A stretch of DNA of 64,000 nt, taken from positions 124,001 through 188,000 of the forward strand of contig PXUA01000005.1 in NCBI GenBank assembly GCA_003022435.1, given 5' to 3'. The notes beneath the pieces were generated by a model. That model worked only from the letters and a program-made list of their open reading frames with translations, searched no databases and had not been told where the DNA came from. Made by a program: the position numbers and the translations under genes. The stretch comes from Bacteroidetes bacterium SW_9_63_38 (GTDB taxonomy: Bacteria; Bacteroidota; Rhodothermia; Rhodothermales; Salinibacteraceae). Shown here in pieces: positions 45,024 to 58,904 of this stretch (the first letter of the stretch is position 1; every line of letters begins with the position of its first letter).

Positions 45024-46411
45024 GATCAAGTCCCGAAAGTTGTGTAATTAGCGTTCTGCCAGGATGCGAGGTTAGGCCGCCACAGGGGCGGGTTCAGTAG
45101 ACGCTTCGACTTCCGGGTCTGGAGCTTGGTGCGACTCTTTCCATTCGAAGAACGCGTCCATGGTCAGGTACCGTCTGCCGGTATACCACTCTTCATGCGT
45201 TTCCGCACAGAGAGCACTGACGAGTCGCTTGACGGACTCCAAATTCGGGAAGATGCGGATGACCTTCTCGCGGCGTCGGATTTCCTCGATGAAGCGCTCG
45301 ACCATGTTGGTCGTTCGAAGCCTGCGCCGATACTTCCCCGGCAGGGCCAGCACAGCAGTGGCGTCGAAGAGTCCATCTTCAAGCACCTCAAGCGCAGCCG
45401 GTGCGTTCTCCTCGATCTCTCCGGAGACTTCCTCGAACTGCCTCTGCATATCGCTCTGCGAGGAGGCCTTCAGAAGCTGATCCAGGATCTGGTGCATTCG
45501 ATCGCGGTAGCTTGAAGGCGTCTGGTCAATCACGTTCCGGCGGAAGTGCGCCTGACATCGCTGCCAGATGAGACCGGGGAAGGCTTCTCGAAGTGCCTGG
45601 ACGAGCCCTTCATGGGCGTCGCTGGTGGCTACCTCGACGCCGGAGAGGCCTCGACGCTTGAGCTGGCCGATGAATCGGCGCCACCCTTCGGCGGTCTCCC
45701 CAAAGGCCGTCTCAAGGCCGAGAATCTCCCGCTGGCCCGCCTCATTGATGCCGACTGCCAGCATTACGGTCGTCGAGCGCACTGCTCCTTGACGTCGAAC
45801 CTTCAGGTGCATCGCGTCCAGCACCAAGAACGGATAGCTCTTCTCCTGCAGGGAGCGAGAAGCCCAAGCTTCAACCTGTTCGTCTAGCTCGCCGGTGAGC
45901 CGAGAAACTGTCGACTTGCTGAACTCTCGCCCACAGAGCTCGGTGGTGATCTCTTTCACGCGGCGCGTTGAAACGCCCTGCACAACCATCTGCATCAGGG
46001 CCAGCACCAGCGCCTTCTCTGAGCGCTGATACCGCTGGAAAAGAGCCGTTTGAAACTCTCCTTTCCGGTCTCGGGGTACCTCCAGTTCAATCCTGCCGAC
46101 ACGCGTGGTCAGCTGGCGCTGATAGCTTCCGTTGCGGTAGCCCTGCCGTTCATCAGTCCGCTCCTCGGGACCGGCCCCAAGGTGTTCGGTCATCTCGGCT
46201 TGCAGAATCTGGTTCAGAATCGGCTCTATCAAGGCAGCAATGCCTCGATCCCCGTGGAGCAGTTCTTGGATCTTCTCATCATCGATCGTAATCTCAAAAG
46301 TGGCCATCGTCAGTATGTCGGTTGGTTCGATTGGTCTCGTTTCCAACCTGGCAGAACGCGATGGCATTTTCTATTCTGCCTGCTCAATTACACAAGATTA
46401 TGGACTCAACC
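45024..46411 (-). mobile_element. IS256-family insertion sequence, complete
   Basis: A 1388-bp element with imperfect terminal inverted repeats. The first 26 bases at each end match at 19 positions, including a shared TTGTGTAATT core and AGTCC. It is bounded by an 8-bp direct repeat, the usual size for this family. It carries one transposase gene. Both ends, the duplication and the frame are intact, so it may still be mobile. Confidence 0.9.
45072..46307 (-). CDS. IS256-family (Mutator-type) transposase
   Basis: 411 residues, the normal size. It is a DDE enzyme with the first Asp in YPFLVLDAMHLKVRR, the second in VEVATSDAHEGLVQALREAF, and the Glu in TNMVERFIEEIRRREKVIR. The family signature IWQRCQAHFRRNVI is present. 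The N-terminus has RQGYRNGSYQRQLTTRVGRIE, typical of the DNA-binding region. The start is the ATG at 46307. No lesion is seen. Confidence 0.96.
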   Translation of the reverse strand: MATFEITIDDEKIQELLHGDRGIAALIEPILNQILQAEMTEHLGAGPEERTDERQGYRNGSYQRQLTTRVGRIELEVPRDRKGEFQTALFQRYQRSEKALVLALMQMVVQGVSTRRVKEITTELCGREFSKSTVSRLTGELDEQVEAWASRSLQEKSYPFLVLDAMHLKVRRQGAVRSTTVMLAVGINEAGQREILGLETAFGETAEGWRRFIGQLKRRGLSGVEVATSDAHEGLVQALREAFPGLIWQRCQAHFRRNVIDQTPSSYRDRMHQILDQLLKASSQSDMQRQFEEVSGEIEENAPAALEVLEDGLFDATAVLALPGKYRRRLRTTNMVERFIEEIRRREKVIRIFPNLESVKRLVSALCAETHEEWYTGRRYLTMDAFFEWKESHQAPDPEVEASTEPAPVAA

Positions 46412-48230: not shown

Positions 48231-48869
48231 CTACATCGATTCGTAGGTGAGGCGCTGAATTTTCTGAACGAGCTGACGTTTCTTCCGCTTGAACCCTTCC
48301 CGGACGGTTTGGCCGGCTATTTCCACGATCTTACCGTCTTGGACCAAGCGTGCGAAGGCAAGCTGATCACTAAATGTCTTCAGCGCCGCCTCATTCGTCA
48401 CCAGTGTCGTGCCTTTGTTTTCCAGAATGTTTCTCACCCACGGCTCAGAGGCATCCACGTACAGCATTTGGATGTCCTCTTCCGCCCCCCCCGGGGGTCT
48501 GTATACAAACTGAAGACTCTCGACTGACTCCTCAAATCCTCGGTTTTGAATTTCGAACCGATAGTCAATGAAAACAAAGTTTGCACTGGTCAAACCAATC
48601 CCCTGCTCGTTAATCAGCTTGTCACGGAGAGTAGAAAGCGACAACTTCTTACTCGCCTCTTCGGTCCGCTTGACCTCGACCTCACCCTTGCGTTCAATCA
48701 CTTGAACCAATGTATCCAGGAGTGCACGAGTAGGACTGTCCTGTTTAATTTCGGTGAGAAGCTGGGAGGTTTGAAGCCAACGTTGTGCAGTTGCCTCCGG
48801 AGCCCCCATCGCCAGGCACCCAATGCCCAGCAGAAAAAGTGTCAGAACCCTGCGAGCTGACTGATTCAT
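48231..48869 (-). CDS. Exported protein in the gldN position
   Basis: 212 residues with a signal peptide (VLTLFLLGIGCLAMGAPEATAQ). The mature part is mixed alpha/beta with NFVFIDYRFEIQNRG and LQFVYRPPGGAEEDIQ, then a basic end (EGFKRKKRQLVQK). It is directly downstream of the GldM-like gene, where GldN sits in the canonical operon. It is shorter than typical GldN (about 300 residues) and lacks motifs I can identify, so the GldN role is inferred from position only. Confidence 0.72.
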   Translation of the reverse strand: MNQSARRVLTLFLLGIGCLAMGAPEATAQRWLQTSQLLTEIKQDSPTRALLDTLVQVIERKGEVEVKRTEEASKKLSLSTLRDKLINEQGIGLTSANFVFIDYRFEIQNRGFEESVESLQFVYRPPGGAEEDIQMLYVDASEPWVRNILENKGTTLVTNEAALKTFSDQLAFARLVQDGKIVEIAGQTVREGFKRKKRQLVQKIQRLTYESM

Positions 48870-48926: not shown

Positions 48927-49985
48927 TTACGCAAGAATGAAGCTGTAAGAGAGACTGGAATCACCCAGGTTCACTGGGATGGACTGTCCAGCGTGATTGA
49001 TCCGAACAACGTTCTGGAGTTGAATAATGAGCCGGTCCTTCGGCTGCGCTCCAACTTTGTTCAAACCTCGAATCAACTCTCCCTTCAGCGTAGAATTTGA
49101 GCCGAGTTCGAAAGTCCCGATCTCCTGACTCGCCTTAAGCCCCTTCCGGATTGAGACCTTCGCCTTCTTCACCCGGTATTTCGCATCGTCGGGATAACTC
49201 TTGGCAAACTCTGCGTCCGCCTCCACTTTGAACTGGACGACAGGACGAGCACGAGGCAGGCTCTCACCGTTCGCAATCTTTTCTCCCTTCGCGTCAAGCA
49301 CCTCCAACTTCGGACGAGGAGGATCAATTACCGCGAACTCTTTCTTGCCCAGGTAAACCGGATCTTCTCCTTCAGAGGGAAGATATGCTTCCACAGTGAC
49401 ATTATCGGACGACGGGCTGAGGGTGAGTTGGCGTCCGTCAACCGTTCCTGAACCTGAAGCCTTCAACTGGAGTGGACGTCCCTCCAAACCGGGAACGTCG
49501 ATTCGAATCTGATTCTTGGTGCGGCGGTACAGCGACTTCGTTGCCACACTCGTAGCAACGAGTTCGGGACGGCGAACCGTGAACGATCCCTCAAGGATTT
49601 CGGAAGTCGGCCCCCCCTTCGCACGGTCGTACCGGATTTTTGCCTCATACGTCACTTCTCTTTTTTCCTGCCCCTCGGAAAGAAGTTTGGCCGTCGCGAC
49701 GCTTATATCCTCATTGCCCTCGACCGTGACTTTTTCATCGTCGGTGCTCAACTTGATTTTGCCTCCTTTCGAAAGCTTGGACGCTTTCAGGTAAGCATTC
49801 GCGGTGTACGTTTGCCCGAGGATCACCGTCTGCTGCCCTCCACTCAACACGGGCTTTACCTCTTTTACGAGTACCGTCTCCTCCTTCAGGTCAAACGTAC
49901 TGAAGGAGTACAGCAGAATCGGAAGATACAGGGCAAGCATGACCCTGTACCGGAGCTGTTTGATATCCCCTCCACCTTTGGCCAT
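48927..49985 (-). CDS. gldM: GldM-like type IX secretion protein
   Basis: 352 residues. One N-terminal membrane helix (LRYRVMLALYLPILLYSF) is followed by a periplasmic region built of several Ig-like beta domains, ending in a DRLIIQLQNVVR block as in GldM. GldM and GldL form the proton-driven motor of the type IX secretion system. It is shorter than Flavobacterium GldM (about 510 residues). It starts 2 bases after the gldL stop, which implies translational coupling. Confidence 0.8.
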   Translation of the reverse strand: MAKGGGDIKQLRYRVMLALYLPILLYSFSTFDLKEETVLVKEVKPVLSGGQQTVILGQTYTANAYLKASKLSKGGKIKLSTDDEKVTVEGNEDISVATAKLLSEGQEKREVTYEAKIRYDRAKGGPTSEILEGSFTVRRPELVATSVATKSLYRRTKNQIRIDVPGLEGRPLQLKASGSGTVDGRQLTLSPSSDNVTVEAYLPSEGEDPVYLGKKEFAVIDPPRPKLEVLDAKGEKIANGESLPRARPVVQFKVEADAEFAKSYPDDAKYRVKKAKVSIRKGLKASQEIGTFELGSNSTLKGELIRGLNKVGAQPKDRLIIQLQNVVRINHAGQSIPVNLGDSSLSYSFILA

Positions 49986-49987
49986 AA

Positions 49988-50662
49988 CTAGTTAACGGTT
50001 TTATTCGTGTCAGAGACTCCGTTGGGCGTCACCTGCGGATCGTTGAATTGCCGGAAGCGACGGAGCATCTCGTCCAGGTCGTCCCGCATCTCTTCAACTG
50101 CACCGCCGGCGTTCTGCATCTCCGTGCCGAGGGAATTCATGCCTTCCCCCAAACGCTGAGCATCCTCGGCAAGATCTCCCGTTGCCACCTCGTTCAATTT
50201 CGTCCGCATATCCTGAACGGCAACGCGGGCCTGCTTCATTTCCCCTACCATCTCGTGGATCTCTCCACCAAACTGCTTAATCTCTTTACCGAGCGCTCCC
50301 ATCATAACGTTCAGGTCATCGTTGACCTTCTTCTCAATCATTTTCCGTGCCGAGGCACGAACCGGAGTTCCGGAAGCCTCACTTGCCCCCCCCGCCTCCG
50401 CAGCAGCGGACGCCTCGCCTTCTCCCTCCTCATTGCCCGACGGAACTTCGATCATGAAGGCCTGCCCGAGTTCAAGGGATCCCATAATCACGAAGGTCGC
50501 TGCCTCCCCGATGAACCCGAGCTGCATGAAGAGCTCCCAGTTCGGATACTTGAGAATCTTGAAGAACACTCCCAGGATGGCGAGTGACCCGAAGATTCCA
50601 ATGAAGAATCCGAGCACCTTTTTGATTCGCTCAAGTACGGCTTTCTGCTTCGGTGTAGCCAT
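49988..50662 (-). CDS. gldL: GldL-like type IX secretion motor protein
   Basis: 224 residues. Two membrane helices form a hairpin: GFFIGIFGSLAILGVFFKIL and FMQLGFIGEAATFVIMGSLE, the GldL pattern with a conserved Glu in the second helix. A cytoplasmic tail has a Glu/Ala/Gly-rich stretch and then a long coiled coil (VNDDLNVMMGALGKEIKQFG onwards). GldL with GldM makes the rotary motor. The Glu in the second helix is the likely proton-pathway residue. Confidence 0.9.
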   Translation of the reverse strand: MATPKQKAVLERIKKVLGFFIGIFGSLAILGVFFKILKYPNWELFMQLGFIGEAATFVIMGSLELGQAFMIEVPSGNEEGEGEASAAAEAGGASEASGTPVRASARKMIEKKVNDDLNVMMGALGKEIKQFGGEIHEMVGEMKQARVAVQDMRTKLNEVATGDLAEDAQRLGEGMNSLGTEMQNAGGAVEEMRDDLDEMLRRFRQFNDPQVTPNGVSDTNKTVN

Positions 50663-50726: not shown

Positions 50727-52553
50727 CTACCTTCCTCCCCCTTGCCCATTTTCGCCCTGCTGTGGAGCATTCTCGCCCTGCTGCGGGGGCGGAGGGGCCT
50801 GTTCGCCTTGCTGCGGGGCATTCTCACCCTGCGGGGGCGGAGGGGCCTGTTCGCCCTGCTGCGGGGCATTCTCACCCTGCGGGGGCGGAGGTCCTTGCTC
50901 CGCACCAGGCTGCTCGCCACCGCCCGCGCCCGGCTGAGTCTGCGGAGGGGGTGTCGGCTCCGGTCCAAGACTCTCCTGCTGGCCCTCAATCGAGCTCACG
51001 TCCGCTGCACAGCGGAATCCAATCCGGGCAGAGGGCTTGTCCTTGTCCTGATAGTTTCGAACACCGACTCCAATCTGAAACGCGTTCGATGCCCACGATC
51101 CTCCACGGATTACGTGACGCGACTCTTCCGGGTCCTTGTATACCGGATCCAACCCGGAGAGGGCCGAATAGCTCGGCGTAAACGCGTCCTGGACCCATTC
51201 CGCAACGTTTCCGGCCACATCGTGGAGTCCCCAACGGTTCGGCGGATAACTTCCCACAGGAGCGGTGAAGGCGTACCCATCAGCGGCCTGTCCCTGCCGT
51301 CCCGGATTGAAGTTGGCGAGGTAGCGCCCCTGCGGATCGCGAGGCGAAAAGCCTGCCCACGGATAAACTCCCCCAACTCGACCGGCACGAGCCGCATACT
51401 CCCATTCCGCCTCGGTCGGAAGCCGTTTTCCCTCCCACTCACAGTACTCCTTCGCGTCCTTCCAGGTAACCGCAACAACGGGATAGTCGCTTCGCTCCGA
51501 ACCGTAGAAGTAGGTCTTCCAATTAGCTCGGCTGGCGGCCTCGTCCCAAGCCGTGGAGTCCGGCAGTCGCGATTCCCGCTTGCTTTCGGACAAGTCACTG
51601 ATGTAGTCACGGTAATCCTTATTCGTAATCTCAAAGCGGTCGATATAGAACGAACTGACCGTGACTTTCTTCCGACCCGCATTCTGGATATCAAGCGGGT
51701 CTTCATCCGTCAATCCCATGATAAAGGACCCATCTGGTAGGCGAACCATCGTTCCGTCGTTGGACAGCGTCGGGGACCCGGAAATCGGCGCCTGTCCCGG
51801 ATCGTCATAGGGCGCCGGTTCTTCTCGCTGCACAATCAGAGGGTTTGTCTTTCTCAGAGAGTCGAGGGTGTACGGAATGTCGAACTTCTGGATGGCAACC
51901 TGGTCGCCGGAAACAGGATCATTGAACGGACTGCTGATCTCGCTGTCGGATGTCCGTCCTCCAAACTCTCCCTGCTTCTCCTCCTCAGATGTCCCTCCTT
52001 CCTCAACAGGCGTGGGACCGGGCGGCTGACGCTCGATCTTCTCGGGCTTGTACGAGATACCGACCCCGGGCATGAAACCCGCAACCACATCCAGTTCGAG
52101 TCGATTTCCTTTTCCCTGAGGTACCTCACGCACCCCCAGGCGCCCATTCAGCTCCAGATTAAGAGCAAAGTTTTTCGCGATCCCGTACTCGATGCCTGCC
52201 CCGACCGGGAGCACCCCGCGTTCGCGATCACCAATGTAATATCCGTACCCGGCCGTCAGATACGGGTTAACAGGCTCGCTGTCCCCGAGAAAATGAATCT
52301 GCGCGATGCCATCGATGGAAAAGATATTCTGGTACGTGCCTCCCAACCGGAGCCGAAGGTAATCGGAAGACTCGAGCTGCACGCCCATCTGAACGGCGGG
52401 ATTCGTCCCGTCAAGATCACTGCCGGCCGCAGAGGCAATATGGGCCCCTCCGTTCAGAAAAAGCCTCTGTGAGTACGCTTCAGCCGGCCCACAAAGGCAC
52501 CAGCTTAACAGGAAGAGCGTCAATACTCGTGCTGACCACTTTCCAGCTCTCAT
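50727..52553 (-). CDS. gldK: Beta-barrel-GldK (FGE-sulfatase domain) fusion protein
   Basis: 608 residues, three parts. (1) A signal peptide ending AEAYSQ and an OmpA-like barrel segment of about 150 residues (YLRLRLGGTYQNIFSIDGIA, VNPYLTAGYGYYIGDRERG, FALNLELNGRLG). (2) A formylglycine-enzyme-like domain (about residues 280-530: SFYIDRFEITNKDYRDYI, KRLPTEAEWEYAARAG, VAGNVAEWVQDAF, HVIRGGSW, GFRCA), as in GldK. (3) A Pro/Gln tail with three 16-residue repeats. Normal GldK is a lipoprotein without the barrel. It precedes gldL by 64 bases. A ring role with GldN is inferred. Confidence 0.85.
   Translation of the reverse strand: MRAGKWSARVLTLFLLSWCLCGPAEAYSQRLFLNGGAHIASAAGSDLDGTNPAVQMGVQLESSDYLRLRLGGTYQNIFSIDGIAQIHFLGDSEPVNPYLTAGYGYYIGDRERGVLPVGAGIEYGIAKNFALNLELNGRLGVREVPQGKGNRLELDVVAGFMPGVGISYKPEKIERQPPGPTPVEEGGTSEEEKQGEFGGRTSDSEISSPFNDPVSGDQVAIQKFDIPYTLDSLRKTNPLIVQREEPAPYDDPGQAPISGSPTLSNDGTMVRLPDGSFIMGLTDEDPLDIQNAGRKKVTVSSFYIDRFEITNKDYRDYISDLSESKRESRLPDSTAWDEAASRANWKTYFYGSERSDYPVVAVTWKDAKEYCEWEGKRLPTEAEWEYAARAGRVGGVYPWAGFSPRDPQGRYLANFNPGRQGQAADGYAFTAPVGSYPPNRWGLHDVAGNVAEWVQDAFTPSYSALSGLDPVYKDPEESRHVIRGGSWASNAFQIGVGVRNYQDKDKPSARIGFRCAADVSSIEGQQESLGPEPTPPPQTQPGAGGGEQPGAEQGPPPPQGENAPQQGEQAPPPPQGENAPQQGEQAPPPPQQGENAPQQGENGQGGGR
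50748..50891 (-). repeat. Three tandem 48-bp repeats encoding PPPPQGENAPQQGEQA
   Basis: The C-terminal tail of the GldK-like fusion consists of three 48-base units. Two encode PPPPQGENAPQQGEQA and the third PPPPQQGENAPQQGEN. The units are nearly identical in DNA, so copy number may vary by slippage without changing frame. Confidence 0.85.
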
Positions 52554-52622
52554 TTGGGAAAACCTATCTGTGATACAGGGTGTGAGGTCCATGGCAAATT
52601 GCATACCAGCCTAGACGGGGCC

Positions 52623-53402
52623 TTACTTCAGACTAAACCGGTAATTGAAGTCGATAAACGAGACGAAGTCCGGGATGCCGTCGGGCCTGAATCCCTCGTA
52701 ACCGTCCAAGAGATCGGAAGACGAAATACGAGTTCCGATCCGGAACTTTTCGAGGATCGTCACCCCCACCTTGAGCGATCCAGTGACTCTTGTTCCCAAT
52801 TTTTCAGAATTTGACAAATCGTCGAAATCGTAAGAGGGAGAGATTATAAAATTCGGACCGACTCCGAGAAACACCCGGAAAAGTCCTTGCCGAACATACG
52901 GCAGTTCGTAATCTGCGTAGAAGTCAAGCGCCACGGCATTCGCGCTGAATCCAGCTCCTCCGGTCGACTCTCCAGACAGGCGGTTGTACACGAGATCAGC
53001 GCCCAATCCGAACTGATCGAATCGCCCCAGCCGGTGATCTGCACCGACTTGGACGGATAGCTTGCCGCTCCCAGCGAGATACTTAATCGGGTTGTGCTCG
53101 GGATTCCGGCTAAAATCGCCCTGGTAGACCGCGAGCCCCGCACCTACCGAGATTCCATGGACAAACGGTTCCGATTGTTGCCGGGCTTGGGGCATTCGCT
53201 GCTGCTGGCCGGATTGTCCGCCGTACTGCCCCCGCCCTTGTCCCTGCTGGGGAGCAGTGCGCCCCTGCTGCGGAGCTCCTTGCCGCCCCTGATCCGGTGA
53301 CTGACGCTGCGCCTGCACCTCCACTCCAGAAACCCCGAGCGTGGCAAAAGTCGCAGCCGTCAGAATCAGCACCTTGGTTCGAAGCGCGTTACTGTTGAGC
53401 AT
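52623..53402 (-). CDS. Outer-membrane beta-barrel protein with Gln/Gly-rich linker
   Basis: 259 residues. A signal peptide (VLILTAATFATLGVSGVEVQ, cut after QAQ) is followed by about 45 residues rich in Gln, Gly and Arg (GRQGAPQQGRTAPQQGQGRG), then a barrel domain of about 180 residues ending in FIDFNYRFSLK, a typical barrel terminus. It is the first gene of the type IX operon and its APQQG repeats resemble the tail of the GldK-like protein next door. The family is close to PorT/DUF6089-type barrels but is not certain. Confidence 0.75.
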   Translation of the reverse strand: MLNSNALRTKVLILTAATFATLGVSGVEVQAQRQSPDQGRQGAPQQGRTAPQQGQGRGQYGGQSGQQQRMPQARQQSEPFVHGISVGAGLAVYQGDFSRNPEHNPIKYLAGSGKLSVQVGADHRLGRFDQFGLGADLVYNRLSGESTGGAGFSANAVALDFYADYELPYVRQGLFRVFLGVGPNFIISPSYDFDDLSNSEKLGTRVTGSLKVGVTILEKFRIGTRISSSDLLDGYEGFRPDGIPDFVSFIDFNYRFSLK

Positions 53403-55384: not shown

Positions 55385-56299
55385 ATGAAGCGCATTCTTT
55401 TTCTTTTTCTGGACGGCCTTGGCATTGGTCCCCCTACGGAATCGAATCCGTTCGCTCGCACCGAGTACCCTGCCTTTCGCAGGCTTGCCTTTAATCAATC
55501 CTGGCACGCCCCCTTCACCGAGCACGTCGCCTCTCGTCACGTCGTTCGGTCGCTCGACGCCACCCTTGGAATCGATGGTCTTCCGCAGAGCGGTACAGGG
55601 CAAGGCACACTGTTCACGGGTATCAACTGTGCCAACCTCGTGGGGCGCCACTTCGGCCCTTTTCCCCACTCGAAGACACATGCTGTTCTTGATGAACAAA
55701 ATGTCTTTCAGCAGCTCCGGACTTTCCCCTGCCCGAAAACGCCCGTTGCGTTTGCGAATGCGTTCCCACCTCCGTTTTTCGATGCATCGCGCCGGCGTTC
55801 GACCGTCACGACGCATTGCTGCCTGGCGTCGAACGTGCCGTTGCGCAATCGTTCGGCTCTTGTGGGTCGACGGGCCGTCTCGGCCGACCTTACAAATGCG
55901 TACTGGCGCACGCAGCTGGACCTCGATGTTCCGGAGCGCACCGTCACCGATGCCGCTTCTGTTCTGGCGTCGGTGACGAAAGACCATGCGTTCACTCTTT
56001 TCGAATACTTCCTGACCGACAAGGTCGGCCACGGCCGCGTCGACCTCTCCCCCACGACGCTTCTCTCAGAGCTAGACCGGTTCGTCGAGACCCTACTCGA
56101 CCAGCTTGATCCCTCTACCGATACGGTCGCCCTCACAAGCGACCACGGCAATCTCGAAGACACTGCGCACACGCGACACACTCGGAATCCAGTTCCGCTT
56201 CTGGTGTACGGGTGGGCGGCCCCGTTTTTTGCAAACGCCACCGACCTTATGGACGTGACCCCGGCCATCGTGGACGCCCTCCGTTCAACGCGAATCTGA
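55385..56299 (+). CDS. Phosphoglycerate-mutase/alkaline-phosphatase superfamily enzyme
   Basis: 304 residues. Metal ligands are in RILFLFLDGLGIGPP (Asp), QSGTGQGTLFTG (the phospho-acceptor Ser/Thr region), DKVGHGR (Asp, His) and SDHGNLEDTAHTRHTRNPVP (Asp, His, His). This is the pattern of BPG-independent mutase and phosphopentomutase relatives, but at 304 residues it lacks the mutase's second domain. A phosphatase or mutase of unknown substrate. Its 3' end overlaps the end of the S46 gene by 15 bases. Confidence 0.82.
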   Translation: MKRILFLFLDGLGIGPPTESNPFARTEYPAFRRLAFNQSWHAPFTEHVASRHVVRSLDATLGIDGLPQSGTGQGTLFTGINCANLVGRHFGPFPHSKTHAVLDEQNVFQQLRTFPCPKTPVAFANAFPPPFFDASRRRSTVTTHCCLASNVPLRNRSALVGRRAVSADLTNAYWRTQLDLDVPERTVTDAASVLASVTKDHAFTLFEYFLTDKVGHGRVDLSPTTLLSELDRFVETLLDQLDPSTDTVALTSDHGNLEDTAHTRHTRNPVPLLVYGWAAPFFANATDLMDVTPAIVDALRSTRI

Positions 56300-58564
56300 C
56301 GTGGGCTGAGCCTCTGTTTTCGTGGCGGTTTTCGTGTTGTGCTGCCCACCGACAATCTCCTCCACCAGTCGCGTGGCCCCGTACAGGTCCCGCAACACCT
56401 CGAGAATACCCCGGGCATCGACCGCAATGGCCCGAGCGGCCCGGGTTCGGTAGAGATACTTGTTGGGCAACGACTGCATGTTGCCGTCGAAGACCACGCC
56501 GACGACCTCCAGGTCTTTATTCAACAACGGAGACCCCGAACTACCGCCCGAAATGTCGACGGTTGACACGACATTGAGCGGCGTACCCACATCAAAAGAG
56601 TCGGGCACGGAGAGCCACCGTTCAGGCAAGGCCCAATCGTCCCCACTACGGGCGCGGTGTCGTTCGTACATCCCGGCGAAGTCGGTGAATGCCGGGATTC
56701 TGTTTCCGTCTTCGGAGTAGCCCTTTACGGCTCCATCTGAAATGCGCAGCGTAAACGTGGCATCGGGCGAAACGCGGTTTCCATAAAAGACGCGACGGGC
56801 TCGCGACAGCCGTCCGTTGAGCGTCTCCTCCGTACGGCGGAGGTCCTGCATCTGACGGTTCACGTTCAGAAAAAGAGGGGCTAATGCTTCAATTACGGGA
56901 ACGGACGGATCGTTGCTTTTAAGATATCCGTCCCCAAGCAACTTCACGAACTTCGTCGAGTCCATGAGCGCGCTTTTTTCGACCAGACGTGCGGCCAGTT
57001 CCTGAGGCGTGCGATCACGAAAGAGCCGCTGAATGGTCGGATGATTGGGTCCGTAGGCCGAACGAATCTCTTGAAATTGCGCGGCCATGAACGACCGCTC
57101 AAGCTCATCTGGCCAGTCCTGCATCTCCTCTGCGTCCTCTCGAATACTCTGCACGCGATCCTCGCGGGCCCCTCGCTTGCGGAGGAAGTCGTAGTAATAG
57201 GCGTGCACGGCCCGGGTCAGGATGCGCGGGCCGAGCGTGGTGTTTGCAAGCGTGAAAAAGGCTTTCTCCCTATCCGCAAGAATGCGCTTCGATTGCTGCA
57301 GCCGACGCACCTCGCCGACGACCCGGCCATACTGGTTGAGCGAGTCAACCTGAGCCATTGAGTCTTGAAGGGCCCGAAGCGCTTTGGCCCGCCGGGCGAG
57401 GAGAGCGGGATCCTTCAACCCTTCCAGCTTTCCCTCTGCCCCCTTGAGGGAATTCTCCAGTGTAAACAAGGTATTCCGAAGATCGGCCTGTTCCGCCTCC
57501 GTCGGATGATTCGCGAGGTACGCCTGAAGCAAATCGCGCCGCTCCCGGAGAACGTCAGTGCGATTGGGAAGCGTATGGTCTCGCTTGTATTTGAACTGAG
57601 AGACGGTTTCGAGACGGCTCGTTGAGCCCGGATTTCCGACCGCGAAGACCGTCTCCCCGATCTCCGTCCCACTCTCGTCCCAGGAGAAGTGATAGGACGG
57701 CTTCAGCGGGGTGTCGTCCTTCGTATACACGCGGAAGAAAGCTACGTCGAAGGTGTACCGGGGATATGTGAAGTTGTCGGCCGCGCCCCCGAAATACCCA
57801 ACTTGCAGTTCGGGGACCATCACGAGGCGGACATCCTCGTGCCGACGGTAGGTATAGGCCGAATACTCGGCCCCGCGGTACAGACTTACGATGTCCACCC
57901 GGAGACGCTCGTCTCGCGTCTTCGCCTTCTCAGTCATCTCGTTTTCAACTTGCTCGATGCGCTGCTCTCGACTGAGGCCCCGCGTGTCCCGATCCTCGCC
58001 CCCCTCTCGGATACGGCGAGTAACGTCTTTAATCTTCACGATCTCCTCGACGTACAGGGACGGAACGCGCTGCTCTCGGCCGAGCGAGTCCGCATAGAAC
58101 CCGCGTTCCAGAAGGTCTTCTCCACGCCGATGCACATTCGAAATGGCCTCACGGGCACAGTGATGATTGGTCATCACGAGTCCCCTCGCGGACACAAACG
58201 ACGCCGAACAGTTTTCCCCAAACCGGAGCGCGGCTCGACGGGCCTTGGTGTTCCACTGCCCGGCGGTGTCAACGCCGTACTCCGAGCGGAAATATTCGAC
58301 CGGCAAGTGCTCGAAGGGCCAGAGCTTCCCGCGGTCGAACGCCCCCACCTGAACGGTGTCGTAGCCGCCTGGAATGGGCACGAGCGTCGTCGTATCTCGC
58401 ATCGCCGTCACGGTGTCGGTTCTCGCCTCGGGCCGTTCGGCGACTGTCACGGTCTGGCGAGGCGTGCCGCATCCGACGACGAGTAGCACACTCCCAAGAA
58501 TCGCTGCCGCCAGACTGGTCCAGGTCGTTTGAATCAACCGGGCGAAAGGCACTGAAGACGCCAT
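56285..58564 (-). CDS. S46 family dipeptidyl-peptidase (lipoprotein)
   Basis: 759 residues. A lipobox (LLVVGC) puts the lipid on Cys32, so it is probably an outer-membrane or periplasmic lipoprotein. The S46 triad is His in MTNHHC (about residue 135), Asp in GGAADNFTYPRYTFD, and Ser in VDISGGSSGSPLLN. The family (DPP7/DPP11) removes N-terminal dipeptides from oligopeptides for amino-acid nutrition. The start is the ATG at 58564; open frame upstream is not protein-like. It overlaps the 3' end of the previous gene. Confidence 0.95.
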   Translation of the reverse strand: MASSVPFARLIQTTWTSLAAAILGSVLLVVGCGTPRQTVTVAERPEARTDTVTAMRDTTTLVPIPGGYDTVQVGAFDRGKLWPFEHLPVEYFRSEYGVDTAGQWNTKARRAALRFGENCSASFVSARGLVMTNHHCAREAISNVHRRGEDLLERGFYADSLGREQRVPSLYVEEIVKIKDVTRRIREGGEDRDTRGLSREQRIEQVENEMTEKAKTRDERLRVDIVSLYRGAEYSAYTYRRHEDVRLVMVPELQVGYFGGAADNFTYPRYTFDVAFFRVYTKDDTPLKPSYHFSWDESGTEIGETVFAVGNPGSTSRLETVSQFKYKRDHTLPNRTDVLRERRDLLQAYLANHPTEAEQADLRNTLFTLENSLKGAEGKLEGLKDPALLARRAKALRALQDSMAQVDSLNQYGRVVGEVRRLQQSKRILADREKAFFTLANTTLGPRILTRAVHAYYYDFLRKRGAREDRVQSIREDAEEMQDWPDELERSFMAAQFQEIRSAYGPNHPTIQRLFRDRTPQELAARLVEKSALMDSTKFVKLLGDGYLKSNDPSVPVIEALAPLFLNVNRQMQDLRRTEETLNGRLSRARRVFYGNRVSPDATFTLRISDGAVKGYSEDGNRIPAFTDFAGMYERHRARSGDDWALPERWLSVPDSFDVGTPLNVVSTVDISGGSSGSPLLNKDLEVVGVVFDGNMQSLPNKYLYRTRAARAIAVDARGILEVLRDLYGATRLVEEIVGGQHNTKTATKTEAQPTSDSR

Positions 58565-58904
58565 GTTCAATTCGGCAATTGCAGATGCAGAAAAATGTCG
58601 GCAGAGGACCTGCGTCCCCTCTCGATTCTTCCCTCCTCGGTCGTGAGACTCTTTCTCAACAATCTCGTGAGGCCGCCCTGATTCGACGCTCACGCGTTGC
58701 CGTCCTTCCAAGGTCGCCCTCGGAAGCGGGGGAGGCCAGGAACGGCCTTCCCTCGTCGGTTAGGACCACCGGTCGTGGATTTGGACGCAGCAAAGAGCCA
58801 AGACTCCAATTTGCCCCCTTTACTGTCAGGCTGTCCACGGGATCCACGCGGAACCTGAGTGGTCCAGTCTGATTGAGCGTGACCCAGGTTCCAGAAACGT
58901 CCTT
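58565..58904. other. 340-base region upstream of the S46 gene and tRNA-Leu
   Basis: No gene is supported; the open frames here do not look like proteins. It must hold the S46 promoter on the minus strand and the tRNA-Leu promoter on the plus strand. Confidence 0.5.

Follow-up and report, generated by a model that had tools for sequence, protein, structure and literature searches.

The locus described here raises the question of how GldK of a type IX secretion system (T9SS) can be held at the outer membrane when it is not made as a lipoprotein. In the well-studied relatives GldK has a lipid anchor and is joined by a disulfide to a separate barrel, whereas here barrel and GldK form one chain. 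A disulfide that ties a barrel covalently to the GldK/PorK track was described in 2025 (main text of PMC12635249), and this PorG-GldK bond is the most informative comparison for the fusion, in which the linking cysteine is absent. No earlier report of a GldK-barrel fusion was found among the literature matches listed (titles and abstract openings of open-licence papers, without supplements). The main text of PMC12635249 contains none of the terms "Rhodotherm-", "Balneol-", "Salinibacter" or "gene fusion"; PorG goes unmentioned in the accessible part of the PorKN structure paper (PMC12421860), as do Rhodotherm- and Salinibacter in that of a T9SS phylogeny (PMC7323717).

Organization of the locus

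In the window, that is, the whole stretch of 64,000 nucleotides of Bacteroidetes bacterium SW_9_63_38 DNA that was analysed, the genes of interest follow each other on the minus strand in the order B2, gldK-like fusion, gldL, gldM and a gene in the gldN position. The fusion gene is a single uninterrupted frame of 608 amino acids plus stop, and its product starts with a signal peptide and an N-terminal barrel, which a linker connects to a GldK-like FGE domain; a Pro/Gln tail closes the chain. The features are as follows:

52623..53402, minus strand: B2, a separate barrel gene upstream of gldK (translation; weak OMP_b-brl_2; synteny; exact start uncertain)
50727..52553, minus strand: barrel-GldK fusion gene (open frame; PF03781 at 1e-60; TIGR03525 at 2.6e-66, below cut-off)
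52470..52553, minus strand: signal peptide, residues 1-28, whose motif is of the signal peptidase I type (sequence; invariant Q29)
52050..52469, minus strand: predicted eight-strand outer-membrane barrel, residues 29-168, PorG-like by rank, type A (AlphaFold2; Foldseek; profile ranking)
51753..52049, minus strand: linker, residues 169-267 (alignment of relatives; unfused lipoprotein sequences)
51006..51752, minus strand: FGE-like GldK domain, residues 268-516 (PF03781; PorK chains 9ots, 9mzu)
51324..51326, minus strand: codon of Arg410, aligned with the PorG-reactive Cys356 of P. gingivalis PorK (phmmer alignment RGCF / QGRY)
50751..50891, minus strand: Pro/Gln-rich C-terminal tail repeat (tandem repeat, 48-bp unit, 2.9 copies)
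49988..50662, minus strand: GldL homologue (PF22827 at 5.8e-4, below cut-off; profile match to flavobacterial GldL)
48927..49985, minus strand: short GldM homologue (TIGR03517 at 1.1e-13, model positions 229-513 of 524, below cut-off)
48231..48869, minus strand: gene in the GldN position (assigned by position rather than sequence)

A longer start of the fusion gene is possible at 52604; in the closest relatives (L002 and L003) the open frame has its first Met at the position of the window's 52553. Segments of the linker are conserved in the alignment of close relatives and, by eye, also in the lipoprotein paralogues described below. The 48-bp tandem repeat in the tail accounts for the Pro/Gln repeats that a sequence-only reading had ascribed to the protein. 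Pro/Gln-rich low-complexity stretches are found in both B2 and GldK in the window and its close relatives, and were not seen by eye in the aligned members of family f2.

The N-terminal barrel

The sequence-only reading had placed an outer-membrane barrel ahead of the FGE-like domain. Structure prediction of this segment with AlphaFold2, run on the window segment and five relatives, gave a membrane barrel of eight strands rather than a soluble domain (mean pLDDT 88.3, pTM 0.76). Outer-membrane barrels also headed the Foldseek search against the PDB, where the top matches were OmpW (E 4e-6), NspA, designed barrels, OmpA, OprF, Ail and OmpX, with TM-scores of about 0.5-0.7 for the outer-membrane barrel matches. 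Along the strand residues hydrophobicity alternates more strongly than in 5000 of 5000 shuffles, and the three lines of evidence together uphold the predicted barrel. By Pfam, OMP_b-brl matches the window barrel weakly (E 0.011, below the cut-off) and is likewise sub-threshold in 7 of the 9 relatives scanned. AlphaFold2 on the whole fusion protein without an alignment reached a pLDDT of 34 and was not usable. Since the predicted number of strands is even, both ends of the barrel would lie in the periplasm, where the GldK domain must be.

In its architecture the protein resembles those of the OmpA type, which share an eight-strand barrel followed by a linker and a periplasmic domain, and OmpA itself is among the Foldseek matches. 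OmpA-type proteins combine their barrel with a periplasmic peptidoglycan-binding domain, whereas the periplasmic domain of the fusion is GldK-like.

Signal peptide and lipobox

The signal peptide of the fusion ends in PAEAYS and the mature protein is expected to begin at Q29, which all 17 aligned sequences, window included, have in common and which fits the "Q-rule" for signal peptidase I of Bacteroidetes as given in the accessible part of PMC10653852. A lipobox-like pattern is absent from the first 90 residues of the window protein, in keeping with the earlier claim of a signal peptide without lipobox, and from the same region of 26 of 28 fused GldKs. The two proteins that do show such a pattern near the start count against the idea that the barrel stands in for the lipid: in one (L197) the pattern is present but ahead of the likely start, and in the other (L215) LSAC lies within the hydrophobic stretch of a signal that we read, tentatively, as one of the signal peptidase I type. 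Of the control loci, taken from Bacteroidota outside the class, 63 of the 70 with an intact 5′ end show a lipobox-like motif (72 loci in all, the non-Rhodothermia among the best 80 of at least 336 relatives), as judged with a pattern looser than that used for the fused proteins.

The GldK domain and its missing cysteine

PF03781 matches residues 268-516 of the fusion protein, and TIGR03525, the GldK/PorK model, scores 224.6 bits against a curated cut-off of 350. All six relatives scanned (three fused, three unfused) fall below this cut-off as well, at 164.5-219.9 bits. Of the NCBIfam models, PorK/GldK far outscores the rest, both for the window protein and for each of the six. With GldK/PorK the window protein shares the FGE-like domain, the location beside gldL and gldM, and cysteines 371 and 515, which align with PorK cysteines; it differs in having an N-terminal barrel where the lipobox would be, an arginine for the PorG-reactive cysteine and a score below the cut-off. 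The low TIGR03525 score, together with a PDB search in which FGE enzymes match as well as PorK, could also be read as the mark of an unrelated FGE-fold enzyme that carries a barrel and works outside any secretion system. We hold this to be the least probable of the readings considered, in view of the GldL and GldM homologues with which the gene sits, the wide margin of the PorK/GldK match in the window and 6/6 relatives, and the 13 matches to T9SS cargo tails in the genome. Despite failing the lipobox, cysteine and cut-off tests, the protein is homologous to GldK and probably does the work of GldK.

The partner of PorG in the disulfide is Cys343 of GldK in F. johnsoniae (main text of Liu et al. 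2025, PMC12635249), and in PorK of P. gingivalis the PorG-reactive residue is Cys356, within a conserved RGCF motif (same text). The window residue aligned with the latter by phmmer is Arg410, with QGRY in place of RGCF. The cysteine is missing in all 28 fused GldKs tallied, and also in all six unfused paralogues. Among the 72 control loci, 52 of the 62 RGCF-like motifs located in GldK/GldJ-like proteins have it; the 10 motifs lacking it look GldJ-like. Since the unfused paralogues also are without the cysteine, its loss is not tied to the fusion, and the idea that the loss followed from fusion is weakened. An FGE enzyme too has no cysteine at this position, so its absence may be ancestral.

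Distribution and barrel types in Rhodothermia

GldM was detected with TIGR03517 in 32 of 244 Rhodothermia genomes, in no case over the cut-off. A home-made GldM profile (A3) returned the same 32 genomes; TIGR03517 served as a second search of the class because A3 recovers canonical GldM poorly (in 3 of 28 control loci, not all of which need hold gldM). The 5′ end of gldK could be read in 29 of the 32 genomes, including one of family f2 (G041) in which two contigs each carry a part of the gene, read separately, and excluding three (G021, G323, G337) in which it is cut off or lies off the contig. An N-terminal barrel (21 genomes) or barrel-like domain (8 genomes, type C, less certain) precedes GldK in 29 of 29, so the fusion is not a chance event. 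By family, the fusions number 15 in f1, 6 in f2, 5 in f17, 1 in f44 and 2 in f45. Occurrence of the same fusion elsewhere in the class, on which the sequence-only reading had made its case depend, is thereby established, with the barrel nature less certain in the eight type-C genomes.

Three N-terminal types can be distinguished. Type A, that of the window, has B2 upstream wherever the region was read, whereas B2 is missing upstream of gldK in all three type-B loci (G005, G006 and G011). In the GldK-domain tree, which used 48 of 59 rows (11 control rows were dropped because the script pattern missed their domain start), type B falls inside type A next to G013 (98/96), whose row is flagged as a long branch, and the barrel therefore seems to have been exchanged in that clade. 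Type C (f17, f44 and f45; 8 genomes) has a longer N-terminal segment with no Pfam barrel match above noise, save a weak porin match in 1 of the 8, and is called barrel-like, with less certainty, on its alternation, its signal peptide and a motif recognised on visual inspection.

A sequence-only test of alternation gave median z values of 2.8, 3.4 and 2.3 for types A, B and C. On the same scale two known barrel families reached 2.8 and 2.4, B2 2.0 and PorG 1.2, and the non-barrel sets 0.4 (GldK domains), -1.1 (GldN-position proteins) and 1.7 (GldM). As PorG itself scored only 1.2, this test is supporting evidence at most.

Relation of the barrel to PorG

PorG (DUF6089, PF19573) is a predicted eight-strand barrel with cysteines in a periplasmic tail, according to the main text of PMC12635249. 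The window barrel shares with it the predicted eight strands and a periplasmic C-terminus covalently joined to GldK, and among the families compared PorG is the best profile match of type A. In hhalign runs with signal peptides trimmed, type A matched PorG with a probability of 97.7/97.9 and a score of 83-88, OMP_b-brl with 91.1/91.0 and 48, and OMP_b-brl_2 with 7-11 and 24-25. Relative to untrimmed local runs, trimming lowered the PorG score and kept its rank; these pairwise probabilities are uncalibrated against a database and compare these families alone, and the control barrel sets used 29 of 30 loci each, with frames picked by a rough script. In a profile search type A found PorG members first (5e-8) and OMP_b-brl next (1.5e-5). 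The reverse search with the PorG profile placed type A third among outside matches (1.9e-5), behind an OMP_b-brl_2 protein (1e-7) and an OMP_b-brl protein (1.4e-5), and PorG itself matches these two general families with probabilities of 91-95. For these reasons the kinship with PorG is a ranking and not a proof, and the window barrel is best described, from profile comparison, as closest to PorG among the families compared. For types B and C, the profiles give PorG no preference over the other families.

The differences from PorG are also clear. The fusion is joined by a peptide bond rather than a disulfide and has no tail cysteine; the mature barrel and linker of the window protein hold no cysteine at all, whereas a cysteine lies at most 13 residues from the end in 30 of 30 best-scoring PorG loci. 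PF19573 has no match at E 1 in the window's own genome, passes the cut-off in none of 60 relatives (19 of the 32 GldM-bearing genomes are among them) and is weak in 3 of these 60 at E 0.1. In a sample of the phylum, 36 of 148 genomes exceed the cut-off of the model; one of the 36 (G178) belongs to the class and has a marginal partial match (24.2 bits against 23.2). Failing both the PorG Pfam and cysteine tests, the window barrel is not filed as PorG. The fusion also provides one barrel per GldK chain, whereas in the PorG system GldK is in large excess (main text of PMC12635249).

The separate barrel B2 is a competitor for the role of PorG counterpart in type-A loci. It matches OMP_b-brl_2 weakly and, among the families compared, is nearest to PorG (signal-trimmed probability 95.5-96.5, score 63-71, against probabilities of 41-62 for the two general families). 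The window copy contains no cysteine and ends a few residues past a conserved YRF motif. The fused barrel might accordingly be an anchor and nothing else, as in OmpA, with the part of PorG played by B2 or by nothing, and we regard this as a genuine, if lesser, possibility. It is favoured by the synteny of B2 in type-A loci and its likeness to PorG, by the failure of the PorG profile to place type A first among outside matches, by the sequence differences among barrel types, with type B apparently exchanged as if any barrel would do, and by the lipobox paralogues, in which a lipid can substitute. Against it, B2 ends near its last strand by eye and has no tail cysteine with which to hold GldK, it is missing upstream in 3/3 type-B loci, and type A scores higher to PorG than B2 does. 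On balance we lean slightly to the fused barrel as the equivalent of PorG.

We also considered whether type B is B2 fused to GldK. In its favour are the Y/F-x-G-D-F motif that the two share by eye and the lack of a B2 gene upstream; the profiles do not support it (probability 25-28 untrimmed, 5-7 trimmed).

Unfused paralogues and apparent exchange of anchors

Three genomes (G016, G022 and G018) encode a GldK paralogue that lacks the barrel and has a lipobox, LTGC in the first two and VSAC in the third. Another paralogue, lacking the barrel and any clear lipobox, is found in G016, G022 and G014; in the last it stands in tandem with the fused gene. Records L032 and L033 belong to two of the lipobox-paralogue genomes. 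The paralogues are located as follows:

L163:5224-6441, L165:273-1667 and L166:4898-6145: lipobox-bearing, barrel-free GldK paralogues, apart from the operon
L162:4937-6091, L164:444-1547 and L117:9588-10760: GldK paralogues without barrel or clear lipobox

Neither gldL nor gldM was seen in the 6-11 kb around the lipobox paralogues. All six unfused paralogues fall within a clade of type-A proteins in the GldK-domain tree (14 rows, support 97/93), the G014 row as a long branch, and the 9-row subclade that contains the lipoprotein paralogues has a support of 92/91. From this nesting, the barrel seems to have given way to a lipid anchor in this line, and not the reverse, and barrel and lipid look like alternative anchors. 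The notion that the barrel took the place of GldK's lipid anchor, as first suggested by the sequence-only reading, is supported by these three genomes, and their lipobox paralogues are the best evidence that barrel and lipid may share the same anchoring job. They suggest that the two are interchangeable for holding GldK at the membrane.

By eye, the linker of the lipobox paralogues looks like that of the fused proteins. This bears on the idea that barrel and GldK are cut apart after export and that the fusion merely secures equal amounts of the two, an idea favoured by the roughly 100-residue linker, which is variable in length among relatives. The fusion is kept across three N-terminal types, however, and since the lipid-anchored paralogues have retained such a linker, GldK seems to require tethering; we consider cleavage highly improbable.

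Proposed mechanism

The predicted fold, the conservation and the paralogues with an exchanged anchor make the anatomy fairly secure, and very probably the protein is a barrel-anchored GldK homologue. It would serve as the hub or track subunit of the Rhodothermia T9SS. The signal peptide would direct it to the periplasm and the barrel would insert into the outer membrane, where, with both barrel ends periplasmic, the linker would suspend the GldK domain beneath the membrane. This domain would polymerise with the GldN-position protein into the ring or track, driven by GldL and GldM. In doing so the barrel would take over the job of the GldK lipid anchor, which is a separate part in Flavobacterium and Porphyromonas, and also that of the disulfide-bonded PorG, which is dragged through the membrane by the moving ring; the barrel may then carry force. 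We favour, by a little, the reading in which a fused PorG-like barrel has superseded GldK's lipid anchor, and probably also the disulfide, mindful that the PorG-like B2 upstream in type-A loci could be the counterpart instead.

Because barrel and GldK are here one polypeptide, the fusion offers independent evolutionary evidence that the barrel-track tie is a working connection. The genomes that carry it also amount to a natural experiment bearing on what PorG does and in what stoichiometry. In Rhodothermia with fused GldK alone, every hub subunit might bring its own PorG-like barrel, forming a crown of about 30 barrels that slides in the outer membrane at a barrel:GldK ratio of 1:1 and without disulfide chemistry. 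We put this forward tentatively. If true, the rotor itself would be an integral outer-membrane structure, and in some relatives barrel-bearing, lipid-anchored and free GldK subunits would be mixed. An eight-strand barrel is about 26 Å wide. The published ring has 33 units, with an inner dimension of 380 Å and an outer of 540 Å (main text of PMC12635249), from which we calculate a pitch of 36-51 Å per subunit, leaving room for one barrel on each.

Motor, translocon and surroundings

Profile comparison matches the window GldL to flavobacterial GldL with a probability of 96.8/96.9, PF22827 being weak (5.8e-4). The GldN-position protein has no Pfam match and aligns with flavobacterial GldN by hhalign with a probability of 1.3-1.8, so that sequence comparison gives no confirmation and the gene is named by position. 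GldM of the window is short compared with the 494-520 amino acids of flavobacterial GldM (n=16). In the class, TIGR03517 gave 33 matches, none over cut-off, all of which start at or beyond model position 224 of 524; the region of the first periplasmic domain of GldM is therefore unmatched in all 32 genomes.

SprA turned up in 59 of the 60 relatives searched, own genome included; the one miss is the genome of the window itself, an assembly 84% complete. This miss, like the lack of sequence support for GldN, weighs against the proposed mechanism. CTD cargo was found in 41 of 41 relatives searched. Several relatives, G001, G003, G010 and G028 among them, have SprA and CTD cargo and no GldM match; in these, translocon and cargo are present but no motor is recognisable.

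On the side of the operon where the gldN-position gene lies, positions 45072-46367 of the window hold a transposase-like gene, presumably of the IS256 kind from its appearance by eye, and beyond it lies an HNH endonuclease-like gene. Positions 56285-58711 encode what we take to be a large secreted peptidase, which by eye resembles family S46.
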